This document shows, in pieces, positions 4,737 through 59,093 of a DNA stretch of 64,000 bases. The translations under genes were made by a program, and so were the position numbers. Each line of letters opens with the position of its first letter. Position 1 is the first letter of the stretch. Under the pieces are notes generated by a model. It ran no database searches and had not been told where the DNA came from. It saw nothing but the letters and a program-made list of their open reading frames with translations. Origin of the DNA: Branchipolynoe longqiensis (taxonomy: Eukaryota; Annelida; Polychaeta; Phyllodocida; Polynoidae); assembly GCA_030323885.1 (NCBI GenBank), contig CM059188.1, forward strand, positions 113,254,776-113,318,775, given 5' to 3'.

Positions 4737-5793
4737 AAAGGCCCGGTCACATATACGTTAGTGGACATAGTTGAACGTAGTGGAGGCTAACATAGTTGAA
4801 CGTACTTGAACGTAGTTGAACGTAGTTGAACTTACCCACATCCATACTTCTCCATGATGCTAACTTGGTAATAACGTGGGTAGGTCGTGAGTTCCAATTT
4901 AACCTTTGAACATGTTCAAAAGAGGGCTACTTTAGAGGCTAAGGTACTGTGGCAAAGTCTTGGTACTCTTAATGTACTCTAGCATACTCTAGTGTACTCT
5001 AGCATACTCTAGAATACTCTCGAATACTCTAGCATACTTGGACATAATTGAACGTAGTTGACTGTAGTGGAGGCTAACGTACATTGAACATAGTTGGACG
5101 TAGTTGGACGTAGTTGAACATAGTTGAACGTAGTTGAACGTAGTTGAACGTAGTTGAACATAGTTGAACGTAGTTGAACGTAGTTGAACGTAGTTGAACG
5201 TAGTTGAACGTAGTTGAACGTAGTTGAACGTAGTTGAACGTAGTTGAACGTAGTTGAACATAGTTGAACATAGTTGAACATAGTTGAACATAGTTGAACA
5301 TAGTTGAACGTAGTTGAACGTAGTTGAACGTAGTTGAACGTAGTTGAACGTAGTTGAACGTAGTGAACGTAGTTGAACGTAGTTGAACGTAGTTGAACGT
5401 AGTTGAACGTAGTTGAACGTAGTTGAACGTAGTTGAACGTAGTTGAACGTAGTTGAACGTAGTTGAACGTAGTTGAACGTAGTTGAACGTAGTTGAACGT
5501 AGTTGAACGTAGTTGAACGTAGTTGAACGTAGTTGAACGTAGTTGAACGTAGTTGAACGTAGTTGAACGTAGTTGAACGTAGTTGAACGTAGTTGAACGT
5601 AGTTGAACGTAGTTGAAAGTACTGACATCCGTACAATAACCTATTTATCCGTACCAAAACCTGCCATACCATAGCGTTTTTCACCGTAGTTTAACATACT
5701 TACACCACGTTTGACCCACGTTAATCTATCCTACGTTCATCTACGTTCAACTACGTTCAACTACGTTCACTAACGTGTATGTAACCAGGGCTT
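4737..5793. mobile_element. foldback element FB1 with 10-bp satellite core
   Basis: Terminal inverted repeats: AAAGGCCCGGTCACATATAC at left; the right end read on the minus strand is AAGCCCTGGTTACATACACG. Both continue into GTTAGTG. The interior is almost entirely a 10-bp tandem repeat. FB2 (19719), FB3 (33131) and FB4 (62597) have related ends but other cores. No protein is encoded. Confidence 0.85.
4793..5620. repeat. 10-bp tandem array (GTTGAACGTA)n
   Basis: Roughly 55 near-perfect consecutive units between 5090 and 5617, with degenerate units (TAGTGTACTC, GGACATAG variants) before. A single-base slip at 5364 changes register. Translation gives artefactual FNYVQLRSTT repeats in several frames. 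Confidence 0.95.
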
Positions 5794-10985: not shown

Positions 10986-11792
10986 CATTCGCTATGATGA
11001 TTGATGCATGGAGTGGAGTGTGAGTTAGTACCTACTGTAATTGTATTAGTTTCCATAGTGAGGTTATTTAGTAACTAAAGTAACACTAATAGTATTAGTA
11101 CATAGAGTGGAGGGTGATTTAGTAACTACTGTAATTGTATTGGTTTACATAGTGAGGTTATTTAGTAATTACAGTAATACTAATAGTACTAGTACATAGA
11201 GCGGAGGGTGATTTAGTAACTACTCTAATTGTATTAGTTTAAATAGTGAGGTTATTTAGTAATTACAGTAATACTAATAGTATTAGTACATAGAGTGAAG
11301 AGTGATTTAGTAACTACTGTAATTGTATTAGTTTACATAGTGAGGTTATTTAGTAATTACAGTAATACTAATAGTACTAGTACATAGAGTGGAGGGTGAT
11401 TTAGTAACTACTGTAATTGTATTAGTTTAAATAGTGAGGTTATTTAGTAAGTACAGTACTACTAATAGTATTAGTACATAGAGTGAAGGGTGATTTAGTA
11501 ACTACTGTAATTTTATTAGTTTAAATAGTGAGGCTATTTAGTAAGTACAGTAATACTATTAGTAAATAATAGTATTAGTACATAGAGTGGAGGGTGATTT
11601 AGTAACTACTGTAATTTTATTAGTTTAAATAGTGAGGTTATTTAGTAAGTACAGTAATACTAATAGTAAATAATAGTATTACTACATAGAGTGAAGGGTG
11701 ATTTGGTAACTACTGTATTAGTGTTTGTGCATAGAGCGGCTGATGATGTACTAACTACAACAATTGTATATGTAATTAAAATAGAGGGTAAA
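10985..11792. repeat. ~95-bp minisatellite, left part
   Basis: Units contain CATAGAGTGGAGGGTGATTT, AGTAACTACTGTAATTGTAT and TAGTGAGGTTATTTAGTAA at a spacing of ~92-105 bp (starts near 11101, 11197, 11288, 11384, 11476, 11581, 11684). The array continues after the LTR element at 11797-12300. Confidence 0.92.
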
Positions 11793-11796
11793 TTAG

Positions 11797-12300
11797 TGTA
11801 GTGGTCTGCACTGACCTCTCAGGCCAGTAACCACATAGACAGGTAGGCGTGGGGAGTGTTTAGATATCAGGGAGCCTAGGTGGTGTAATGGTTAGCACAC
11901 TGGCCCGGAATGCAGAGAGATGTGGGTTCGAGTCCCGCTCTAGGCGCAGTATTTCCCATTTTCATCACCCCCACGACACTGGTTGCCGTGATCAGGATCC
12001 TGTACAAGCTACACGCTGTATGGTTGTTGAACCTACCCTGTGTATGTATGTGTTAGTGCATTGCCTGTATGTATGTAATTGTAAGCATTACAAGACTTAC
12101 AATTCCAGGGGGGACGAGTGTAGTGGTCTGCACTGACCTCTCAGGCCAGTAACCACATAGACAGGTAGGCGTGGGGAGTGTTTAGATATCAGGGAGCCTA
12201 GGTGGTGTAATGGTTAGCACACTGGCCCGGAATGCAGAGAGATGTGGGTTCGAGTCCCGCTCTAGGCGCAATAATTCCCATTTTCATCACCCCCATGACA
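11797..12300 (+). mobile_element. tRNA-LTR TRIM element, copy 1 (complete, 504 bp)
   Basis: Two direct repeats of 182 bp (11797-11978, 12119-12300), nearly identical, each starting TGTAGTGG and ending GACA, surround a 140-bp internal region. The internal region begins, 1 nt after the 5' repeat, with TGGTTGCCGTGATCAGGAT, a one-to-two-mismatch version of the tRNA-His-complementary primer site seen in copy 2. It ends with the purine tract AGGGGGGACGAG directly before the 3' repeat. The 4-bp target duplication TTAG is at 11793-11796 and 12301-12304. No protein is encoded. Structure is that of a terminal-repeat retrotransposon in miniature; it needs proteins in trans. Confidence 0.88.
11874..11945 (+). 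other. tRNA-like sequence inside the 5' LTR
   Basis: 72 nt with acceptor arms GCCTAGG/TCTAGGC (7 pairs, one wobble), a D-arm region GTGTAATGGTTAGCAC and a T arm GTGGG-TTCGAGT-CCCGC containing the B box GGTTCGAGTCC. The anticodon stem does not pair well. TTTT ~13 nt downstream could stop Pol III. It looks like a tRNA-derived Pol III promoter captured by the LTR, not a functional tRNA gene. The 3' LTR carries the same sequence. Confidence 0.75.
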
Positions 12301-13965
12301 TTAGTAACTACTGTAATAGTGTTTGTGCATAGAGCGGCTGATGATGTACTAACTACAACAATTGTATATGTCATTAGAATAGAGGGTAAATTAGTAACTA
12401 CTGTAATAGTCTTTGTGCATAGAGTGGAGGGTGATTTAGTAACTACTGTAATTTTATTACTATTAGTCCTTAGAATAGAGGGTAATTTTGTAACTACTGT
12501 AATAGTGTGTTTGTGCATAGAGTGGAGGGTGATTTCGTAACTACTGTAATTGTTTTACTATTAGTCCTTAGAATAGAATAGAGGGTAAATTAGTAACTAC
12601 TGTAATAGTGTGTGTGCATAGAGTGGAGGATGAGTTGGTAACTACTGTAATTGTCTTACTATTAGTCCTTAGAATAGAGGGTAATTTAGTAACTACTGTA
12701 ATAGTGTGTGCAGAGAGTGGAGGGTGATTGACTAACTACTGTAATTGTATTACTATTGGTCCTTAGAATAGAGGTTAAATTAGTACCTACTGTAATAGTG
12801 TTTGTGCATAGAGTGGAGGGTGATTTAGTAACTACTGTAATTGTATTACTATTAGTCCTTAGAATAGAGGATAAATTAGAACCTACTGTAATAGTGTTTG
12901 TGCTTAGAGTGGAGGGTGATTTAGTAACTACTGTAATTGTATTACTATTAATCTTTAGAATAGAGGATAAATTAGAAACTACTGTAATAGTGTGTGCATA
13001 GAGTGGAGGGTGATTTAGTAACTACTGTAATTGTATTACTATTAGTCCTTAGAATAGATGGTAATTTAGTAACTACTGTAATAGTGTGTGCATAGAGTGG
13101 AGGGTGATTTAGTAACTACTGTAATTGTATTACTATTAATCCTTAGAATAGAGGATACATTAGAAACTACTGTAATAGTGTGTGCATAGAGTGGAGGGTG
13201 ATTTAGTAACTACTGTAATTGTATTACTATTAGTCATTAGAATAGAGGGTAATTTAGTAACTACTGTAATAGTGTGTGCATAGAGTGGAGGGTGATTTAC
13301 TAACTACTGTAATTGTATTACTATTAGTCCTTAGAATAGAGGGTAAATTAGTACCTACTGTAATAGTGTTTGTGCATAGAATGGAGGATGATTAAGTAAC
13401 TACTGTAATTGTATTACTATTAGTCCTTAGAATAGAGGGTAAATTAGTAACTACTGTAATAGTGTTTGTGCACAGAGTGGAGGGTGATTTAGTAACTACT
13501 GTAATTTTATTACTATTAGTCCTTAGAATAGAGGCTAAATTAGTAAATACTGTAATAGTGTGTGTGCATAGAGTGGAGGATGGTTTAGTAACTACTGTAA
13601 TTGTATTACTATTAGTCCTTAGAATAGAGGGTAAATTAGTAACTACTGTAATAGTGTTTGTGCATAGAGTGGAGGGTGATTTAGTAACTACTGTATTTGT
13701 ATTACTATTAGTCCTTAGAATAGAGGCTAAATTAGTAACTACTGTAATAGTGTGTGTGCATAGAGTGGAGGATGGTTTAGTAACTACTCTAATTGTATTA
13801 CTATTAGTCCTTAGAATAGAGGGTAAATTAGAAACTACTGTAATAGTGTTTGTGCATAGAGTGGAGGGTGATTTGGTAACTACTGTAATTGAATTAGTCC
13901 TTAGAATAGAGTGTAGATTAGTAACTACTGTAATTCTATTAGTACACAGGTCGGAGGGTAGTTTA
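12301..13965. repeat. ~95-bp minisatellite, right part
   Basis: Continuation of the array before the LTR element. Here the units alternate GTGCATAGAGTGGAGGGTGA with ATTACTATTAGTCCTTAGAA and TAGAGGGTAAATTAGTAACT. Open frames of LVTTVIVxVHRVEG type on the plus strand are translated repeats. Confidence 0.93.
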
Positions 13966-14034
13966 ATAACTCCTATAACAGTACTGTCAAACCTGGATGG
14001 CCTTAGCTTGGAAATGCCAGGTATACTGACACAA

Positions 14035-14308: not shown

Positions 14309-14421
14309 TGTTGTGGGGGGGTGATGACAATGGGAAATATTGCACCTAGAGCGGGACTTGAACCCACATCTCTTTGGATTCCGGGCCAGTGTGCTAAATA
14401 TTACACCACTTAGGCTTCCAA

Positions 14422-14452
<31 letters not shown>

Positions 14453-15057
14453 GATACAGGCAATGCACTTACATATACATTAACAGGGTAGGTACAACAA
14501 GTATACAGTGCATAGCTTGTACAGGATCCTGGTCACGGCACCAGTCTCATGGGGGTGATGCAAATGGGAAATATTGCACCTAGAGCGGGACTTGAACCCA
14601 CATCTCTTTGCATTCCGGGCCAGTGTGCTAAACATTACACCACCCAGGCTCCCTGATATCGCCATACTACCTATGCCGTCTTTCTATGCGGGTCCTTGCC
14701 TGAGAGATCAGTGCGGACCACTACACTCGTTCCTCTGGAATTGTAAGTCTTTTAATGCTTACAATTACATACATACATACATAGATACAGGCAATGCACT
14801 TACATATACATAAACAGGGTAGGTACAACAAGTATACAGTGCATAGCTTGTACAGGATCCTGGTCACGGAACCAGTCTCATGGGGGTGATGCAAATGGGA
14901 AATATTGCACCTAGAGCGGGACTCAAACCCACATCTCCTTTAATTCCGGGCCAGTGTGCAAACCATTACACCACCTAGGCTCCCTGATATCAGCACACTA
15001 CCCACGCCTACCTGTCTATGCGGCTCCTTGCCTGAGAGGTCAGTGCAGACCACTACA
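14309..15057 (-). mobile_element. tRNA-LTR TRIM element, copy 2 (three LTRs)
   Basis: Minus-strand element. The 5' LTR is 14876-15057, internal 14726-14875, middle LTR 14545-14725, second internal 14420-14544, and a truncated 3' LTR 14309-14419 that has lost its U3-like part and the purine tract. The primer-binding site read on the minus strand is TGGTGCCGTGACCAGGATC (14526-14543), whose first 12 nt match the complement of the animal tRNA-His 3' end as I recall it. The target duplication GTAA is at 14305-14308 and 15058-15061. A tandem LTR-internal-LTR-internal-LTR form can arise by recombination between copies. Confidence 0.85.
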
Positions 15058-21996: not shown

Positions 21997-23163
21997 TCAG
22001 TTGGTGAGTAGCCTGTGCGCTATCGGCTGAGGCTTCTCTAGTCGTTTGTGGTAATGTCTAGCAAACGAAGTAGCGGTTTTCCATCCCGCGTGAGCTAGGA
22101 TCCGTTTAACGGAGATGCCTAGCAATCTTGCCTTGGACACCATTGCACCACGTGTAGAGTGCGATGAGTACCTGTCTGTATTTACTCCCGCCAGTTTTAA
22201 CACATTCATTGTCCATCGGGCGAGGGTATCCCTGGAAATGGCCTTGTGTGGCTTAATAAAGCTGACCAATAGCTGTCTTGAGTTTCTTATTAATCTTGTC
22301 TTGGATATATAATTTCGTATCGCAGATACGACACATAACTTGCGATCCTGAGTGAAACTGGACACCCCTATCGTAGAAAGGGGGTCACCTAATCGGTTTG
22401 ATTTTAATAAAGTTGATAAATCAAACGTGGCCTCTTTACTGTCAATTTCTAGACCATTCAGCGACAGGGCAACTATAGTTTGGCCTCTGTGTCCAGTGAC
22501 CAGGAGAAGCAAAACTGCGACTTTGAAACCTAAAAGTTTAACGTCCAGAAACTTATTTTCTGGCCATTTCTTGAAGAGGTTGAACACTAGAGAAACATCC
22601 CAAAACCTATTATATTTGGGTTTAGGCGGATTCCTCTGATAAATTGATCGTATGATCCAACAAATAACATGGTGTTTACCCATTGTTTGTCCATTAACCC
22701 GCGGTAGGATTATCGACAGAGCACATCTGGCAGCGTTAATAGCGCCATATCCTAGGCCTTCGTCCTCTAGGTAACGTAGGAAGAGTCCTACCTGGGATAC
22801 TGTGGGAGTCATTGGCTTGACTTTCTTAAGCAGGCAATAAATACCCCATTTCTTTAAATACGTAGTATACATTTTCACCGTTCCTTTTCTCCACGCATCA
22901 TCAACCAAACGCTGTTGTGTAATTTTGTCTAAGCCAAACTGTTCTAAATATTTATTTAAAAAAGGAATGCCACCAACGGAGTTGTCGACACGTTTCCGTG
23001 GCGTTCTAGTGGTCCCTGATGTTTGAGGTTTCCTCGGAATCTTGGGAAGCGAAGGCTGCTTTTGGCTGTGGCTAGTAACGTCGGTAGCCACGGTTGCGTG
23101 TGCCACTCGGGGACGATGAGTATGGCGTGTGTCCCCTCCATTTGAATCTTTCTGGCGACTTTG
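21997..23163 (-). CDS. DIRS tyrosine recombinase
   Basis: Tyrosine recombinase that in DIRS elements inserts the circular double-stranded DNA intermediate, replacing the DDE integrase of LTR elements. Counting residues from 23106, the catalytic set is complete: R207 in TGHRGQT, H316 and R319 in HSTRG, H339 in LAHAGW and Y352 in RHYHKR. An N-terminal SAM-like core-binding region spans roughly residues 45-155. The frame opens after a stop at 23164-23166 and has no ATG before residue 79. It overlaps the RT frame by ~200 nt in the -1 frame. Expression is therefore more likely by frameshift or reinitiation than from its own start. The 3' end at 21997 is followed by ~140 bp to the terminal repeat. 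Family assignment is confident; activity is inferred. Confidence 0.93.
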   Translation of the reverse strand, partial: QSRQKDSNGGDTRHTHRPRVAHATVATDVTSHSQKQPSLPKIPRKPQTSGTTRTPRKRVDNSVGGIPFLNKYLEQFGLDKITQQRLVDDAWRKGTVKMYTTYLKKWGIYCLLKKVKPMTPTVSQVGLFLRYLEDEGLGYGAINAARCALSIILPRVNGQTMGKHHVICWIIRSIYQRNPPKPKYNRFWDVSLVFNLFKKWPENKFLDVKLLGFKVAVLLLLVTGHRGQTIVALSLNGLEIDSKEATFDLSTLLKSNRLGDPLSTIGVSSFTQDRKLCVVSAIRNYISKTRLIRNSRQLLVSFIKPHKAISRDTLARWTMNVLKLAGVNTDRYSSHSTRGAMVSKARLLGISVKRILAHAGWKTATSFARHYHKRLEKPQPIAHRLLTN

Positions 23164-24399
23164 CTAATGATAGTAAAGGGGGGGAAAATGTAAAAGAAAT
23201 GATGTCGCCACTTTAGGGAGAAGGCATCAATGTGCCAAGCATTGGGTTCCGGGTGCCACGAAACATATTTTGGAATTTTAAAGTTATTACGCGAAGCGAA
23301 CAAATCGATCTGAGGTGAACCCCATGTGTGACAAATGTGTTTGAAAATGGATGGATTAAGTGACCACTCTAAGTGATCATGGAACTGGCGACTCATCTTG
23401 TCAGCTAGACAATTTTGTGTGCCTGGAATGTGATTAACAGTTAACCAGACATCAAAGGTTTGAGCCCAGTTCCAAATGAGAAGTGCCATTGCATTACATT
23501 TAATCGATTTTGTACCTCCCATATTTCTGACATAAGCCATAGCTGTGGTGTTATCCGTGAGGATACGTACATTATTTTTGGGTATTTTTACTAGACTGGT
23601 TAATCCCAAGTAAATGGCCCTTAGTTCTAGAACGTTAATATGATCGGGGAGTTCCGATTCTAGCCATCTTCCTCCCGTTGCTACATCATTTTGATGTGCT
23701 CCCCACCCTTGGAGAGACGCGTCAGTGGTAACGGTAGTGTCAGGCTCTCCCATTCTAATGGGATTGGGGGAATGGTCAAAGTGGTTTAGCCACCAATCAA
23801 TGTCGGCTAGGCCGTTCTCCGAAATAAACATGGTCTTTTCAAAGTTTCCCTTTGCGCGGGCCAGCGCCAAATTTTTATCAATTTCGAGGGATTTTATGTG
23901 TGCCGCTCCGTATAGAATAGCTGGACTATACGAAACCATGACCCCGATAAGGACCGCGACCTGTCTAATCTTTGGCCTAGAAGTGTCTAACAGCTGTATC
24001 GCTGTGCGGTAAAGCTTATCTTTCTTTTGGCGTGTAAGCGAAACGGTCATAGCCGTGGTGTTCAGAATGAACCCGAGACACTTAAGCTCCTGAGTAGGAG
24101 AAAAAACTGATTTCTTGTTATGTATGAAGAAACCCAATTTGGTGAAAATTTTGCATAAATCTTTAACAGCGAGTTCACATTGCGTGAAAGATTGGCCCAT
24201 AATAAAAGAATCATCTATGTATGGAAACATACAATGCCCCAATTTTGCCATGTGTGCAAAAATTGGTTTCAACAACTTAGTAAACAGACGCGGTGCGCAG
24301 GCCAAACCATTAGGTAAACATGTAAATTCAAAAAGTTGGCCATTCCAGAGAAAACGTAGGTATTTCCGATCTGTCTGGTGAATAGGAACGGTGTAGTAC
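22956..24399 (-). CDS. DIRS reverse transcriptase / RNase H (5' partial)
   Basis: Polyprotein part that copies element RNA into DNA. The visible sequence begins inside the RT fingers/palm, just after the first catalytic aspartate motif, with YYTVPIHQTDRKYLRF. The second catalytic motif is YIDD (24210-24221), preceded by LPNGLACAPRLF. RNase H follows with its four acidic positions: TDAS (23715-23726), E in LELRA (~23620), TDNT (~23555) and D in LADKMSR (~23400). The C-terminal region QIDLFASRNN...YVSWHPEPNA is characteristic of DIRS RT/RH proteins. The frame stops at 22956-22958, directly after a run of six T on the coding strand. The open frame continues through the N gap to 25148, but 24922-25148 is unrelated sequence including an antisense SINE head and must not be joined. 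Confidence 0.93.
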
Positions 24400-24898
24400 N
24401 NNNNNNNNNNNNNNNNNNNNNNNNNNNNNNNNNNNNNNNNNNNNNNNNNNNNNNNNNNNNNNNNNNNNNNNNNNNNNNNNNNNNNNNNNNNNNNNNNNNN
24501 NNNNNNNNNNNNNNNNNNNNNNNNNNNNNNNNNNNNNNNNNNNNNNNNNNNNNNNNNNNNNNNNNNNNNNNNNNNNNNNNNNNNNNNNNNNNNNNNNNNN
24601 NNNNNNNNNNNNNNNNNNNNNNNNNNNNNNNNNNNNNNNNNNNNNNNNNNNNNNNNNNNNNNNNNNNNNNNNNNNNNNNNNNNNNNNNNNNNNNNNNNNN
24701 NNNNNNNNNNNNNNNNNNNNNNNNNNNNNNNNNNNNNNNNNNNNNNNNNNNNNNNNNNNNNNNNNNNNNNNNNNNNNNNNNNNNNNNNNNNNNNNNNNNN
24801 NNNNNNNNNNNNNNNNNNNNNNNNNNNNNNNNNNNNNNNNNNNNNNNNNNNNNNNNNNNNNNNNNNNNNNNNNNNNNNNNNNNNNNNNNNNNNNNNNN
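24400..24898. other. assembly gap (N)
   Basis: 499 unknown bases. It interrupts the DIRS element; the real missing length is unknown. Confidence 1.
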
Positions 24899-24989
24899 TA
24901 TATATCCGTATATATAACCACACTTGAATGCTATACGGGGAAATTGTATATTTCACCCTGTAGCTGAACCTGAAATTACAGATATACGT

Positions 24990-25044
24990 GACCAGACGAG
25001 ATGGCCGAATGAGTTCAGCGTCCGTCTCCCGTTTTGGTAGATTG
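24990..25044 (+). mobile_element. SINE-1 B-type head fragment
   Basis: Only the first ~55 bp of the head (ACGAGATGGCCGAATGAGTT). The body is absent; unrelated CpG-rich sequence follows. Confidence 0.8.
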
Positions 25045-25088
25045 CATCTCCCAGAAACTAGCCGCAATTCGCCCCGGATGAGGATGCT

Positions 25089-25220
25089 AGCGCCCCCTGG
25101 ATGCAAACTCGGCACATTTGACCTCCCTCGTGCAGCGGAAGTTGACATAAGGCGCCCCCTGGTGAGAGGCGCACCAACCGTCTATCAGCCCCGAACGCCC
25201 GTCGCAGCGCCCCCCAGCGG
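25089..25220 (+). promoter_or_regulatory. cluster of three CTCF-like motifs
   Basis: GCGCCCCCTGGATG (25090), GCGCCCCCTGGTGA (25152) and GCGCCCCCCAGCGG (25207) each match 12-13 of 14 positions of the metazoan CTCF core as I recall it, all in the same orientation within 130 bp of CpG-rich DNA. Prediction only. Confidence 0.35.
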
Positions 25221-38559: not shown

Positions 38560-40320
38560 TTAAAGTATCTCACAGAAAACCGCCATTGTCCTGAACTATA
38601 TGATGTACCATTCAGTGTAATACCTGCATTGGGATCAAAACTGTTCCTTGTTTACGAAATTAGCCAGGGTATCTTAAGTATAAACCCTATATAAACCAAG
38701 TGGCGTAATACCTGCATTGATATCAAACAGTTCCACGTTTACCAAAATGGCTAGAGTATCTAGTGCATAACCCACCAATACCGTGAACTATATAATAAAC
38801 CACACAGCATAATTCCTGCATTTACATCAAACCATTCCATGTTTACTCAAATGGTTGGAGTATCTAGTGTATAACCCACCACTACCGTGAACTATATAAT
38901 AAACCACGTAGTGTAATTCCTGCATTTGCATCAAACCATTCCATGTTTACTCAAATGATTGCAGTATCTCGAATATAAACCACCACTACCATGAACTATA
39001 TAATAAACCATGCGGCGTAATTCCTGCATTTGCATCAAACCATTCCATGTTTACTCAAATGGTTGGAGTATCTAGTGTATAAACCACCACTACCCTGAAC
39101 TATATAATAAACCATGCGGCGTAATTCCTGCATTTGCATCAAACCATTCCATGTTTACTCAAATGATTGAAGTATCTTGTGTATAACCCACCACTACCAT
39201 GAACTATATAATAAACTATGCGGCGTAATTCCTGAATTTGCATCAAACCATTCCATGTTTACTCAAATGATTGGAGTATCTTGAGTATAACCCACCAGTA
39301 CCATGAACTATATAATAAACCATGCGGCGTAATTCCTGCATTTGCATCAAACCATTCCATGTTTACTCAAATGCTTGAAGTATCTTGTGTATAACCCACC
39401 ACTACCATGAACTATATAATAAACTATGCGGCGTAATTCCTGAATTTGCATCAAACCATTCCATGTTTACTCAAATGATTGGAGTATCTTGTGTATAAAC
39501 CACCACTACCGTGAACTATATAATAAACCATGCATCATAATTCCTGCATTTGCATCAAACCATTCCATGTTTACTCAAATGGTTGGAGTATCTTGAGTAT
39601 AAACCACCAATACCGTGAACTATATAATAAACAGCATGGTGTAATTCCTGCATTTGCATCAAACCATTCCATGTTTACTCAAATGATTGAAGTATCTCGA
39701 GTATAAACCACCACTACCATGAACTATATAATAAACCATGCATCGTAATTCCTGCATTTGCATCAAACCATTCCATGTTTACTCAAATGGTTGGAGTATC
39801 TAGTGTATAAACCACCACTACCCTGAACTATATAATAAACCATGTGGTGTAATTCCTGCATTTGCATCAAACCATTCCATGTTTACTCAAATGGTTGCAG
39901 TATCTCGAGTATAAAGCACCACTACCGTGAACTATATAATAAACCACACAGCGTAATTCCTGCATTTCCATCAAACCATTCCATGTTTACTCAAATGGTT
40001 GGAGTATCTCGAGTATAAACCACCACTATCGTGAACTATATAATAAACCACGCGTCGTAATTCCTGCATTTGCATCAAACCATTCCATGTTTACTCAAAT
40101 GGTTGGAGTATCTTGAGTATAAACCACCACTACCATGAACTATATAATAAACCATGTGGCATAATTACTGCATTTGCATCAAACTACCCCATGTTTAGTA
40201 AAATGGCTGGAGTACCTCAAGTATAAGCCCCCACTACCCTGAACTATATAATATTAATAAAGCACATGACATGATACTAATTCATGTTTACCAACATGAC
40301 CAGAGTATCTTGAATTTACA
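38560..40320. repeat. 103-bp satellite with octamer motif
   Basis: About 16 units with CATTCCATGTTTACTCAAAT, GGTTGGAGTATCT, CACCACTACCGTGAACTATA, TAATAAACCATGCGGCGTAA. Most units contain ATTTGCAT, the POU octamer in reverse. The period is ~103 bp; the edges are more diverged than the centre. Confidence 0.95.
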
Positions 40321-40435: not shown

Positions 40436-41118
40436 CAGTAAAACCTCTCTAAATCGACGGACCATGGGACCGACTTTAAGTGGTCCAGTTAGGGAGGAGG
40501 TCGGCGTAGGGAATTAGAATATGGTTACAATGGTATTGTGGTAGTTTACAATGACCTCTCAGGCAAGGAGCCACATAGACAGGTCGGTGTGGGTAGTGTG
40601 ATATCAGGGAGCCTAGCTGGTGTAATGGTTAGCACACTGGCACAGAATGCAAAGAGATGTGGGTTCGAGTCTCACTCTAGCCGAAATATTTCCCATTTTC
40701 ATCACCCCCCCCCATGACACTGGTTGCCGTGACCATGATCTTGTACAAGCTATGCACTGTATAGTTGTTGAACCTACCCTATGTATGTGTAAGTGCACTG
40801 CCTGTATGTGTGTAATTGTATGCATGAACAGACTTACAATTGCAGGGGGACAAGTGTAGTCATCTGCACTGACCTCTCAGGCAAGGAGCCGCTTGGACAG
40901 GTAGGTGTGGGTAGTGCAGTGACATCATGGAGCCTAGGTGGTGTAATGGTTAGCAGACTGGCCCAGAATGCAAAGAGATGTGGGTTCGAGTCCCGCTCTA
41001 GGCACGATATTTCCCATTTTCATCACTCCCCATGACAGTGTTGTTAGGATGCAAATAAAGTGATCGATATAGGAGAGTGGTCGAACTGTGGAGGTGGTCG
41101 GGTCGAGAGGTTTTACTG
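40436..41118. mobile_element. pogo-like MITE with TA duplication
   Basis: Ends CAGTAAAACCTCTCTAAATC (40436) and, on the minus strand, CAGTAAAACCTCTCGACCCG. TA at 40434-40435 and 41119-41120. Terminal CAGT..AACCTCTC and a TA target are typical of pogo/Tigger-related Tc1-mariner elements. It carries the LTR element at 40537-41037. Confidence 0.88.
40537..41037 (+). mobile_element. tRNA-LTR TRIM element, copy 3 (501 bp)
   Basis: LTRs 40537-40719 and 40855-41037; internal 135 bp starting with primer site TGGTTGCCGTGACCATGAT at 40721 and ending with purine tract GGGGGACAAG. Target duplication GTAT (40533-40536) against GTGT (41038-41041), one mismatch. The LTRs differ at over ten positions, so this insertion is older than copy 1. 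Confidence 0.87.
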
Positions 41119-56377: not shown

Positions 56378-58378
56378 TTTTACCTCGGTATGCCGCCTCT
56401 GGCTAGCCGTAGGCTAGGGAGAAGGAAGCACATCCGGGTCCAGCAATTAGCATAAGTAACTCACAACGGGAGGACGTTTGTGAGTTGCTCCACAGGATTT
56501 ATCTACTACTACTGCTTTTATCCAAAAGTAAGTACTGTTTTCTTCGATAACTTTGTTTATCATGCTCTATAGCATCTTTTTATGAAAGTTCAGAACTTTC
56601 TTCAGTCCTGTTTGGACTTTGTACGTTTTTTAACTTACGGATAGAACATTGCGTGCCGCTGGCACAAACGAAACCGATACTGAGTTCTATCGACACCTGT
56701 TTTTCAGACAGGGAGAAATGGCAACCCGAGTTGCTCATTTCCTAAGAAAAGTCTCCCGGATCCTAATAGAGGATGATGTTGGGGATGCTTCTGGGTGTTT
56801 TTTATAAACACCCCTGACCGGTTTAAGGCGAACCTCCGAGTTTCGTAATATTTTCTCCAACTTGTTGGCGCTGTAGCCACAGGTGGGAGAAGTGTACGGA
56901 ACAGAGAGAGGGGCCGATCTCACGATCGATGCCCTCCGTTTGGTTGGTTTCGTTACCACACACCTACGGCAAATTTAGCTTCACGCCTGTACTGACACGT
57001 TGCAAAACACGTTCTCTGTACCATGTTCCTCAACCCAGTTTACTGGCTTACACTTGTGTAGTTGAGATGATTCCGGGTTAGTAACGCTTTGGTTTCGTTA
57101 CAGTTCCCGATGGCCACTCGCCGGAATAAGCCGCCCGCTGCAGCGGTGGGTGTCCCCCCTACGGATTACGATTCGTCTCCACCGGCTACGGCTCCGCCGT
57201 CCCCACATCCTGGGGCTCATGCCTCGGATCAAGACAGTGATCACGCCCCTCAACCAGTGGGGTGGGAGGCGAAAATGGCGGAGATGATGGAGGAGAAGAT
57301 GCGCCTTTTCCAGGCGCAGACCTTTCCAGATCCTTCCCAAATCCCTGATGAGGATTGGGAAGACTTTTCTGAGGACGAAGAGGACACGCTTTCGGCACCT
57401 GAGGTTCCGAAACCGAAAGCGCGGGGCAAGAAACGCCGCCCAGTGAGCAGTTCTGGTGACGAGTTCACAAAGAAAGCGAACTCTAAGCGCTCCAAAAAGT
57501 CCAAAAAGAAGAAGAAGAAGAAGAAGACGGACTCTTCTTCAGACTCGTCGTCCGACTCTTCTTCCACCGAGTCGGATTCCGACACGGAACGAGCGGGTGT
57601 CTACGCCAAAATAGGCGTTAAAGCTGGCAAGAAAATTGTCAAAAAGAAAGCTCAGAAAGTGCGCACCACTACCATGATGCGCAAAACGGTGAATAGCCAT
57701 TTCACTACGTTTAAACCGATCGAAGTCATCAACAAGTTGACTGAGCAGATTTCAGGAGTTAAGGGCATTCCTGCTTCGGTTTTCAAAGAGATGGATTCCG
57801 GCATTCATCTTTCCGACGAACGCCGTCGTTATGAAACTTCCCTCTGCCTGATCCATAAGGCAGTTTTGGGTGCCTTGACGTCTGTTATCCCTGTGGCTAA
57901 CAGGATGCAGACAGAGAACAAGTTCTCGTCTTTGGCGCGGGTTATGGACCGGGGCATAGCTTTGTTAGCAGCCGCTAGTAACTACATGACCCATCGGAGA
58001 TTTGAAAACGTTTTCAAATCGGTCACCACAGATGCCGGAAAAGAGGTTGCCCGCTCGAACAAGGTAACGGACCATGATGGTAAGGAATACACCGTGTATT
58101 CCGGACCTACCCCTATCAAGAGCAAACCGCTAGATAAATCCAAGATGTTTGGGGGTCAGCTAGCTTACCTGTACAAACAGGTAGAGGTCGACTACAAGAG
58201 TGCTAAAAACACTGAAGCAAAGAGTCGTCGCTTCCAAAACCCAGCAGGGTTCAGAAAGTCTAGGACGGATTTTCGATTCCGCAGAGGAGGAAGGCCGTTC
58301 AGGGGCGGACCGTCCTTCCAGTTCAACCAGCGAGGAAGGGGCCGAGGCGACAGGCCGGCCTCAAACTGGAACGACACC
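56378..58378 (+). mobile_element. DIRS-type retrotransposon, 5' part
   Basis: Starts with the ~45-bp terminal repeat identical to 21811-21855 (56378-56422), continues GGAAGCACATCCGGGTCCAG, then a ~660-bp leader and the gag-like frame. It is lost in the gap at 58379. It carries the part missing from the 21.8-24.4 kb copy. Confidence 0.88.
57110..58378 (+). CDS. DIRS gag-like protein (3' partial)
   Basis: Putative nucleic-acid-binding structural protein of the retrotransposon. The ATG at 57110 (CCGATGG context) is the better start; the frame upstream to 57089 begins at TTG. Counted from this ATG: a proline-rich start (1-50), an acidic segment (residues 80-93, EDWEDFSEDEED), a lysine run at about 126-140, a serine/aspartate repeat (141-158), a globular region (~165-370) with RRYETSLCLIHKAVLGALTS, and an arginine/glycine-rich C-terminus (RGGRPFRGG, RGRGRGDRP) suited to RNA binding. 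MFGGQLAYLYKQVEVDYK before the RG region resembles the conserved FGG motif of DIRS gag proteins as I recall them. No zinc knuckle is seen. The frame runs into the N gap; residues after the gap are unrelated. Confidence 0.8.
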
Positions 58379-58876
58379 NNNNNNNNNNNNNNNNNNNNNN
58401 NNNNNNNNNNNNNNNNNNNNNNNNNNNNNNNNNNNNNNNNNNNNNNNNNNNNNNNNNNNNNNNNNNNNNNNNNNNNNNNNNNNNNNNNNNNNNNNNNNNN
58501 NNNNNNNNNNNNNNNNNNNNNNNNNNNNNNNNNNNNNNNNNNNNNNNNNNNNNNNNNNNNNNNNNNNNNNNNNNNNNNNNNNNNNNNNNNNNNNNNNNNN
58601 NNNNNNNNNNNNNNNNNNNNNNNNNNNNNNNNNNNNNNNNNNNNNNNNNNNNNNNNNNNNNNNNNNNNNNNNNNNNNNNNNNNNNNNNNNNNNNNNNNNN
58701 NNNNNNNNNNNNNNNNNNNNNNNNNNNNNNNNNNNNNNNNNNNNNNNNNNNNNNNNNNNNNNNNNNNNNNNNNNNNNNNNNNNNNNNNNNNNNNNNNNNN
58801 NNNNNNNNNNNNNNNNNNNNNNNNNNNNNNNNNNNNNNNNNNNNNNNNNNNNNNNNNNNNNNNNNNNNNNNNNNNN
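58379..58876. other. assembly gap (N)
   Basis: 498 unknown bases, interrupting the second DIRS copy. Confidence 1.
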
Positions 58877-59093
58877 TATGTAGATATAAATAATGGCAAC
58901 CCCTTAATGTTTCTCTCTAACCACCGTAACTTCCATGTTATTCACTGCGGAGCGGGCATTCTCTCCTCCCCGCCTCCTCTACACCGTGTGCCAACTCACT
59001 TTGCTCTACTTTCACACACAATTCACTGACAAATGCTTACATAAAACCTCCATCTGCTAATACCCAGGAGCCTAGAAGCTGTGACTGTACAGC

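Follow-up and report, generated by a model that had tools for sequence, protein, structure and literature searches.

A Likely Helenus-Type TRIM with a tRNA-Like Unit in Each LTR in the Genome of Branchipolynoe longqiensis

Introduction

What kind of element carries a tRNA-like sequence inside each of two direct repeats, encodes no convincing gene and lies within a tandem satellite? The question is raised by a 504-bp locus in Branchipolynoe longqiensis, found in a stretch of 64,000 nucleotides that is called the window here. An earlier note, made from the letters alone, had taken the locus for a TRIM with a tRNA promoter in its LTR and for an animal counterpart of Cassandra, which Kalendar reportedly described in 2008 as a plant TRIM carrying 5S. 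The first of these claims stands as far as TRIM structure is concerned, by virtue of ends, duplications and solo LTRs; the promoter function is what the conserved boxes and a run of four Ts (T4) suggest. The likeliest reading, held here with high confidence, is that of a Helenus-type TRIM, a non-autonomous LTR retrotransposon with a tRNA-derived Pol III promoter in each LTR and the replication cycle proposed below. The Pol III step of that cycle, taken alone and judged from sequence, is likely, at a somewhat lower confidence.

Boundaries of the Element

Two direct repeats of 182 bp, differing at 3 of 182 positions, each begin with TG, end with CA and together enclose a 140-bp interior. The same tetranucleotide flanks the whole. 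The element and its older relatives in the window are laid out as follows.

11793..11796, no strand: left target site duplication TTAG, from the sequence and the empty site in the satellite
11797..11978, + strand: 5' LTR, 182 bp, TG...CA; genome copies stop at the same bases
11797..11873, + strand: U3-like part, lying before the tRNA-like unit in the 5' LTR; putative boundary
11979..12118, + strand: interior, 140 bp, without a convincing gene, from the sequence and the ORF list
11980..11998, + strand: primer binding site of tRNA-His type, TGGTTGCCGTGATCAGGAT; the minority variant TGGTGCCGTGACCAGGAT is the exact complement of the tRNA-His 3' end
12107..12118, + strand: polypurine tract AGGGGGGACGAG; variants with 4-6 G in sampled copies
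12119..12300, + strand: 3' LTR, 182 bp, from the sequence
12301..12304, no strand: right target site duplication TTAG, from the sequence and the empty site in the satellite
14309..15057, − strand: older array of this family with two complete LTRs and one missing its first part, TTAC at the outer ends
40537..41037, + strand: older, diverged two-LTR copy; LTRs 87% identical to the query, flanks GTAT/GTGT with one difference

Seven mechanically derived ORFs of 36-106 aa overlap the element. The longest across the interior has 82 aa, and those of 102 and 106 aa run from the 3' LTR out into the satellite that hosts the insertion (repeat-finder rows within 11007-11717 and 12300-13978). This satellite preserves the empty site: the two flanks joined by a single TTAG form a 28-mer that occurs exactly four times in uninterrupted monomers (at 12381, 12580, 13434 and 13626). 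Because the empty site recurs in this way, the duplication of TTAG is real and the element's boundaries are exact. The structural claims of the earlier note were confirmed, namely the 182-bp TG...CA repeats, the 140-bp interior, free of a convincing gene, the primer-site-like sequence one nucleotide past the 5' repeat, the purine tract before the 3' repeat and the TTAG on both sides.

The window contains other sequences of note. Tandem repeats are dense (101 repeat-finder rows) and include a 10-bp array at 5084-5621 and units of 96 and 104 bp at 12300-13934 and 38691-40253. The minus-strand stretch 21997-25181, which resembles a DIRS-type element, has a weak match to Phage_integrase (tyrosine recombinase; E 1.9e-4, below the curated cut-off), and a long ORF on the plus strand at 57071-59029 has TFIIF_alpha, below the cut-off, as its sole Pfam match; both contain a masked stretch.

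Copies across the Genome

The genome searched comprises 1.85 Gb in 1914 contigs. The first 20 bases of the LTR have 23,107 exact matches in it, against 0 for the reversed control, and 7100 places match a primer-site pattern with strictly defined flanks, against 0 for its control; the ratio of these two counts is not a rate of solo LTRs, because the patterns differ in strictness. Copies were read from two best-match searches (loci L001-L060), which lean to young copies, and from a pattern-based sample of 30 loci, all within the first 3 Mb of contig C1.

Most copies in the 60 best-match loci start at LTR base 1 and stop at base 182 exactly, a few being truncated, and TG...CA ends and the order LTR-interior-LTR recur in most sampled copies. 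The search with the LTR that the earlier note had called for found copies that stop at the predicted ends, and complete copies were also checked for 4-bp duplications, as it had proposed. An exact 4-bp duplication flanks 42 of 54 full-ended distinct elements, compared with 144 of 2862 in a mispaired-flank control; seven of the 12 elements without one differ at a single base. Among the full-ended elements none matches at five bases and three match at six, all in TA repeats. These 54 were drawn from 62 distinct elements, the other eight having a truncated or unextended end. A second two-LTR unit at L069, with identical flanks, was merged with the first, and the first unit of L054, which is preceded by an interior end so that its left flank is not genomic, was scored as a miss. 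The insertion sites also share a sequence preference: 29 of the 42 exact duplications read NTAN, and a weak palindrome shows in the flanks, which tend towards TATA on the left side and TATW on the right; flank composition further out (A 0.34, T 0.31) is the sole control. The pattern-based sample, counted with L079-L082 left out, yielded 18 distinct elements (14 two-LTR copies and four solo LTRs), and the duplication is present in 12 of them, including three of the four solo LTRs.

This footprint bears directly on a second explanation, in which the locus is a tRNA-derived SINE, or a composite of SINEs, mobilised by a LINE. The element does share the tRNA-like Pol III head of such SINEs (SINE2), with both A and B boxes, and ARAGORN calls a tRNA in 84 of 88 sampled LTRs. 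LINE-type insertion of a tRNA-derived SINE leaves duplications of variable length and an A-rich or simple-repeat 3' tail. The sampled copies instead have duplications of constant length, 4 bp, and no A-rich tail, and their TG...CA ends, paired terminal repeats, primer site and purine tract are those of an LTR element, which makes a SINE origin highly improbable.

A third explanation, that the locus is a piece of a tandem satellite whose unit measures about 321 bp, draws on the longer forms of the family. These are (LTR-interior)n-LTR arrays of up to six LTRs, with a spacing of mostly 319-322 bp. Such arrays are a minority, however: the 100 LTR-start matches listed fall into 60 clusters (33 singles, 18 pairs, seven triplets and two larger ones, of six and four), so that nine of the 60 have at least three matches, and the cluster of four is a private 60-bp expansion at L079. 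The arrays are also bounded as insertions are. All eight full-ended arrays have an LTR at both ends, four with an exact 4-bp duplication and four with one difference, and single copies have duplications and an empty site. A longer satellite from which the copies would be cut, named in the earlier note as evidence against its own reading, was looked for, and in the copies sampled the longer forms proved to be these LTR-bounded arrays; a satellite origin is extremely improbable. Ends, duplications and the empty site thus led to the rejection of both the satellite and the SINE readings, and the TRIM reading is followed below.

Solo LTRs, which the earlier note had proposed to seek, are present with 4-bp duplications at L075, L077 and L089 and, in one case, within L004. 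The two LTRs are identical in seven of 43 usable two-LTR copies, two of 45 pairs having been set aside with fewer than 150 aligned bases (L033 and L090), and for the pattern-based sample, with 13 such copies usable, the median LTR-LTR difference is 2.2%. Because of the identical pairs and the low median difference, some copies look recent on what is an uncalibrated clock.

Two further arrangements were noticed. Six-LTR arrays at L004/L011 and at L039 (contigs C1476 and C17) are each accompanied, about 170 bp from one end, by an inverted solo LTR, 90% identical; the flanks of the two loci are similar, and they are perhaps a duplicated or allelic stretch. At L079:1443-1911 (G000:C1:2080285) 60-bp copies of the first LTR part are repeated in tandem beside one tRNA-like unit, without LTR ends. 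The idea that L079 represents a donor SINE that gave rise to the LTR was rejected on account of its rarity, the junction pattern having 12 exact matches at nine places genome-wide.

A tRNA-Like Unit within the LTR

Each LTR contains a tRNA-like unit with recognizable promoter boxes and a run of Ts downstream.

11874..11947, + strand: tRNA-like unit in the 5' LTR, called tRNA-Ser(GGA) by ARAGORN; Rfam RF00005, 45.8 bits
11881..11891, + strand: A-box-like TGGTGTAATGG, from the sequence compared with the A-box consensus
11925..11935, + strand: B box GGTTCGAGTCC, from the sequence
11959..11962, + strand: TTTT, candidate Pol III terminator; TTTT is found near here in 86 of 88 LTRs
12196..12269, + strand: tRNA-like unit in the 3' LTR, from ARAGORN and the Rfam tRNA model
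12281..12284, + strand: TTTT in the 3' LTR, from the sequence; proposed 3' end of the template RNA

The Rfam tRNA model matches both window units at 45.8 bits (E 1.2e-8), above its gathering score of 29, and T4 starts eleven bases past the unit. Folding the window sequence by hand, with G-U counted, forms all 16 of 16 pairs in the acceptor, D and T stems. In the anticodon stem three of five pairs form and two of five are broken, and the variable loop has 5 nt. A tRNA-Ser has a long variable arm, so the serine label fits poorly with so short a loop. The parts that would serve as a promoter are intact and the decoding part is impaired, and the unit therefore matches what is expected of a promoter. 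The earlier note had described a 72-nt unit with pairing acceptor and T arms and a perfect B box; the unit, its pairing arms and the B box hold good, and its length, as delimited by the two programs, is corrected to 73-74 nt. The older copy at 40537 retains a recognizable 3' unit, called tRNA-Ser(AGA) by ARAGORN at 40932-41005.

The same parts are kept across copies. In a set of 88 LTRs from 44 two-LTR copies, the B box GGTTCGANNCC is found in 84 and TTTT in 86, and ARAGORN assigns Ser(GGA) in 82. Mean column conservation is 0.98 in the tRNA-like part and 0.97 in the U3 part, in an alignment that includes two misaligned rows (one from L054, and L086). Since the tRNA-like part is hardly above U3, conservation alone is no proof that the unit is used. 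The conserved boxes together with T4 suggest that the tRNA-like unit is probably a working Pol III promoter.

The main alternative accepts the TRIM and assigns its template RNA to Pol II, starting from U3, with the tRNA-like unit a captured passenger or a sequence with another role such as tRNA mimicry, insulator or decoy. The T4 of the 5' LTR, which should block Pol III from making a full template, speaks for it, as does a U3 nearly as conserved as the unit. Against it, no AATAAA was found in the window element's LTRs, whereas three other loci with the same type of primer site (L096, L098 and L099) have AATAAA no more than 100 bp before that site, and the B box and T4 are retained in nearly all of the 88 LTRs. 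Transcription by Pol II is accordingly regarded as unlikely, and Pol III transcription as the preferred account.

Primer Site and Candidate Helper Elements

The primer site begins one base past the 5' LTR. It was compared with a complete tRNA copy at L091 that ends in CCA, served as the source of this genome's tRNA-His 3' end and was named tRNA-His by eye, an identity we assume throughout. The 18-nt complement of its 3' end, TGGTGCCGTGACCAGGAT, is exact in 12 of the 100 primer-site matches listed. By eye, the remaining forms among these 100 are TG with T (three), TTG with C (nine) and TTG with T (76), and in this last, majority form two differences separate the site from tRNA-His. A bulge may be tolerated when the primer pairs, or a different tRNA species may serve.

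When helpers were sought by a tRNA-His site of vertebrate type, there were 0 matches; the tRNA-His of this genome, read at L091, has a different T stem, which is presumably more protostome-like than vertebrate-like, a weak indication. The exact 18-nt site, with the element's usual next base excluded, occurs at 701 places, and forms of it that have CA one base ahead and are followed by A or T account for 124. Of the 701 places, nine were read (L091, L092 and seven stretches of 190-191 bp), with varied results. L095 belongs to the same family as the window element. L097 (G000:C13:53513324-53513514) has a B box in its LTR, the exact tRNA-His site and a similar interior, with similarity scores of 49 and 38 against maxima of 24 and 28 in 300 shuffles; we count it as a diverged second family of this kind.

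Seven of the loci read are without a B box. Three of these have AATAAA within 100 bp before the site: L096 and L098, which form one LTR family, and L099, which is another. Both families combine AATAAA, no B box, a 1-nt spacer and the exact 18-nt tRNA-His site, and outside the primer site they have no similarity to the window element. They are candidate helpers, as a lead only. At L098 (G000:C14:40941190-40941380) agreement with the complement of the tRNA-His at L091 continues by eye beyond 18 nt, up to 33, as though copying had gone further into the tRNA than it usually does. With the interior as query no helper emerged among the 40 of 1704 candidates scored, all of which match the whole interior or nearly so (one covers 1-135) at 97% identity or more. 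As to the autonomous element that the earlier note had suggested looking for, LTR families with the same tRNA-His site exist, and they are candidates by primer site. It is conceivable, though doubtful as a complete account, that a TRIM transcribed by Pol III, with the tRNA-like unit as its R region, coexists in one genome with the Pol II LTR family or families that help it, sharing the exact 18-nt site and the 1-nt spacer. If so, the helper of an animal TRIM of this kind would be identified in the same genome.

The remaining four loci, L091-L094, have about 100 bases in common before the tRNA-His site, without AATAAA or a B box there; in L092 (1395-3019), L093 and L094 these bases end in TTAAAC directly before the exact 18-nt site. 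L091:748-2335 (G000:C1 near 5350885) is a near-perfect 1.6-kb palindrome (96% identity) centred on the tRNA-His-like sequence with CCA, and looks like an aberrant product of tRNA-primed reverse transcription with inverted LTR-like arms. Downstream of the site in L092, an ORF matches the NADAR domain (Pfam PF08719, E 4.7e-17), and about 1.1 kb upstream of the site (L092:1-366) there is an ORF piece with a weak Phage_integrase match (tyrosine recombinase; E 2.9e-4, below the curated cut-off). On C1 the tRNA-His-site pattern twice occurs in same-strand pairs, with spacings of 9.5 and 9.0 kb, which are perhaps tandem elements.

A Model for Replication

The proposed cycle is the Cassandra model with a tRNA in place of 5S. 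Pol III would start at the tRNA-like unit in the 5' LTR or slightly upstream of it, read through the T4 of that LTR and stop at the T4 of the 3' LTR, leaving the tRNA-like unit as the R region. Read-through is required because the first T4 should also stop Pol III. Minus-strand synthesis would be primed by tRNA-His at the site one base past the 5' LTR, and plus-strand synthesis by the G-rich tract. Integrase would be supplied in trans by an autonomous LTR element; the footprint seen is the 4-bp duplication with a preference for NTAN in A/T-rich sites. Recombination between LTRs would then generate the solo LTRs and (LTR-interior)n-LTR arrays seen among the copies.

Implications

The copy counts indicate that a genome can hold tens of thousands of LTRs from TRIMs of this tRNA-like type, young copies still included. 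Since 84 of the 88 sampled LTRs are called tRNA, tRNA gene counts in this genome could be inflated by thousands, a warning to annotators against false tRNA gene calls from such LTRs. Copy number, identical LTR pairs and candidate helpers together make testable the question of how Pol III templates are moved by Pol II LTR elements.

Comparison with Known Systems

The element is closest to Helenus, the name given by Kojima (2024; PMC10886601) to TRIMs whose LTRs contain a tRNA-derived sequence, described there from six animal phyla, fungi and a plant. The available parts of that paper give a size of 311-1263 bp, conserved boxes A and B, PBS and PPT, solo LTRs, several families per genome and false tRNA gene calls; for animals they add 4-bp duplications, tRNA-His among the primers, and tandem arrays, mentioned for LTR-11_DR. 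Helenus units are further marked by isotype disagreement as unlikely to be working tRNAs; the window unit combines a Ser(GGA) call with a 5-nt variable loop and two broken anticodon-stem pairs. The window element has the same two LTRs, a size within that range (504 bp, or 182 + 140 + 182), the tRNA-like unit with boxes A and B, the PBS, the PPT and the 4-bp duplication, and against those parts of the source no difference in kind was found. All structural features of Helenus that were compared are present, which supports a Helenus-type assignment, made by description and not by sequence match to a named family. The earlier note's animal counterpart of Cassandra with a tRNA in the LTR is therefore right as to kind and not new, having been published in 2024 under this name. 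Transcription by Pol III, the mark of TRIMp3, is for the window element what the kept B box and T4 suggest.

Cassandra itself, as portrayed in the portions available of Kalendar (2020; PMC7215508), is likewise a TRIM that carries a Pol III unit within its LTR and forms tandem LTR-interior arrays, and its RNA, as cited in the available parts of PMC10886601, starts in the 5' LTR, within its 5S unit, and ends within that of the 3' LTR. It differs in carrying 5S rRNA and in being found in plants; the window element carries a tRNA-like unit and has no Rfam 5S match up to E 1. The biv-TRIM elements (Satovic 2019; PMC6934838) resemble it as animal TRIMs with TDRx_I(x-1) tandem arrays and solo repeats. 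According to the sections of that paper at hand, they have a TDR of 202-218 bp and an interior of 77-80 bp, compared with 182 and 140 bp here, a PPT that is mostly GGGGAGA and no clear PBS, and those sections mention no tRNA in the TDR.

Helpers offer a further comparison. The accessible parts of PMC10886601 match animal Helenus families to Gypsy elements by primer site only and propose a Gypsy-type helper. The largest LTR count given in them is 5575, for LTR-11_DR, and is exceeded by the 23,107 exact 20-mer matches here, counted by a different criterion. To the known kind the present element thus adds a very high copy number, young copies, a target-site preference, a second, diverged family and, as candidate helpers, two AATAAA-bearing LTR families with the exact tRNA-His site.
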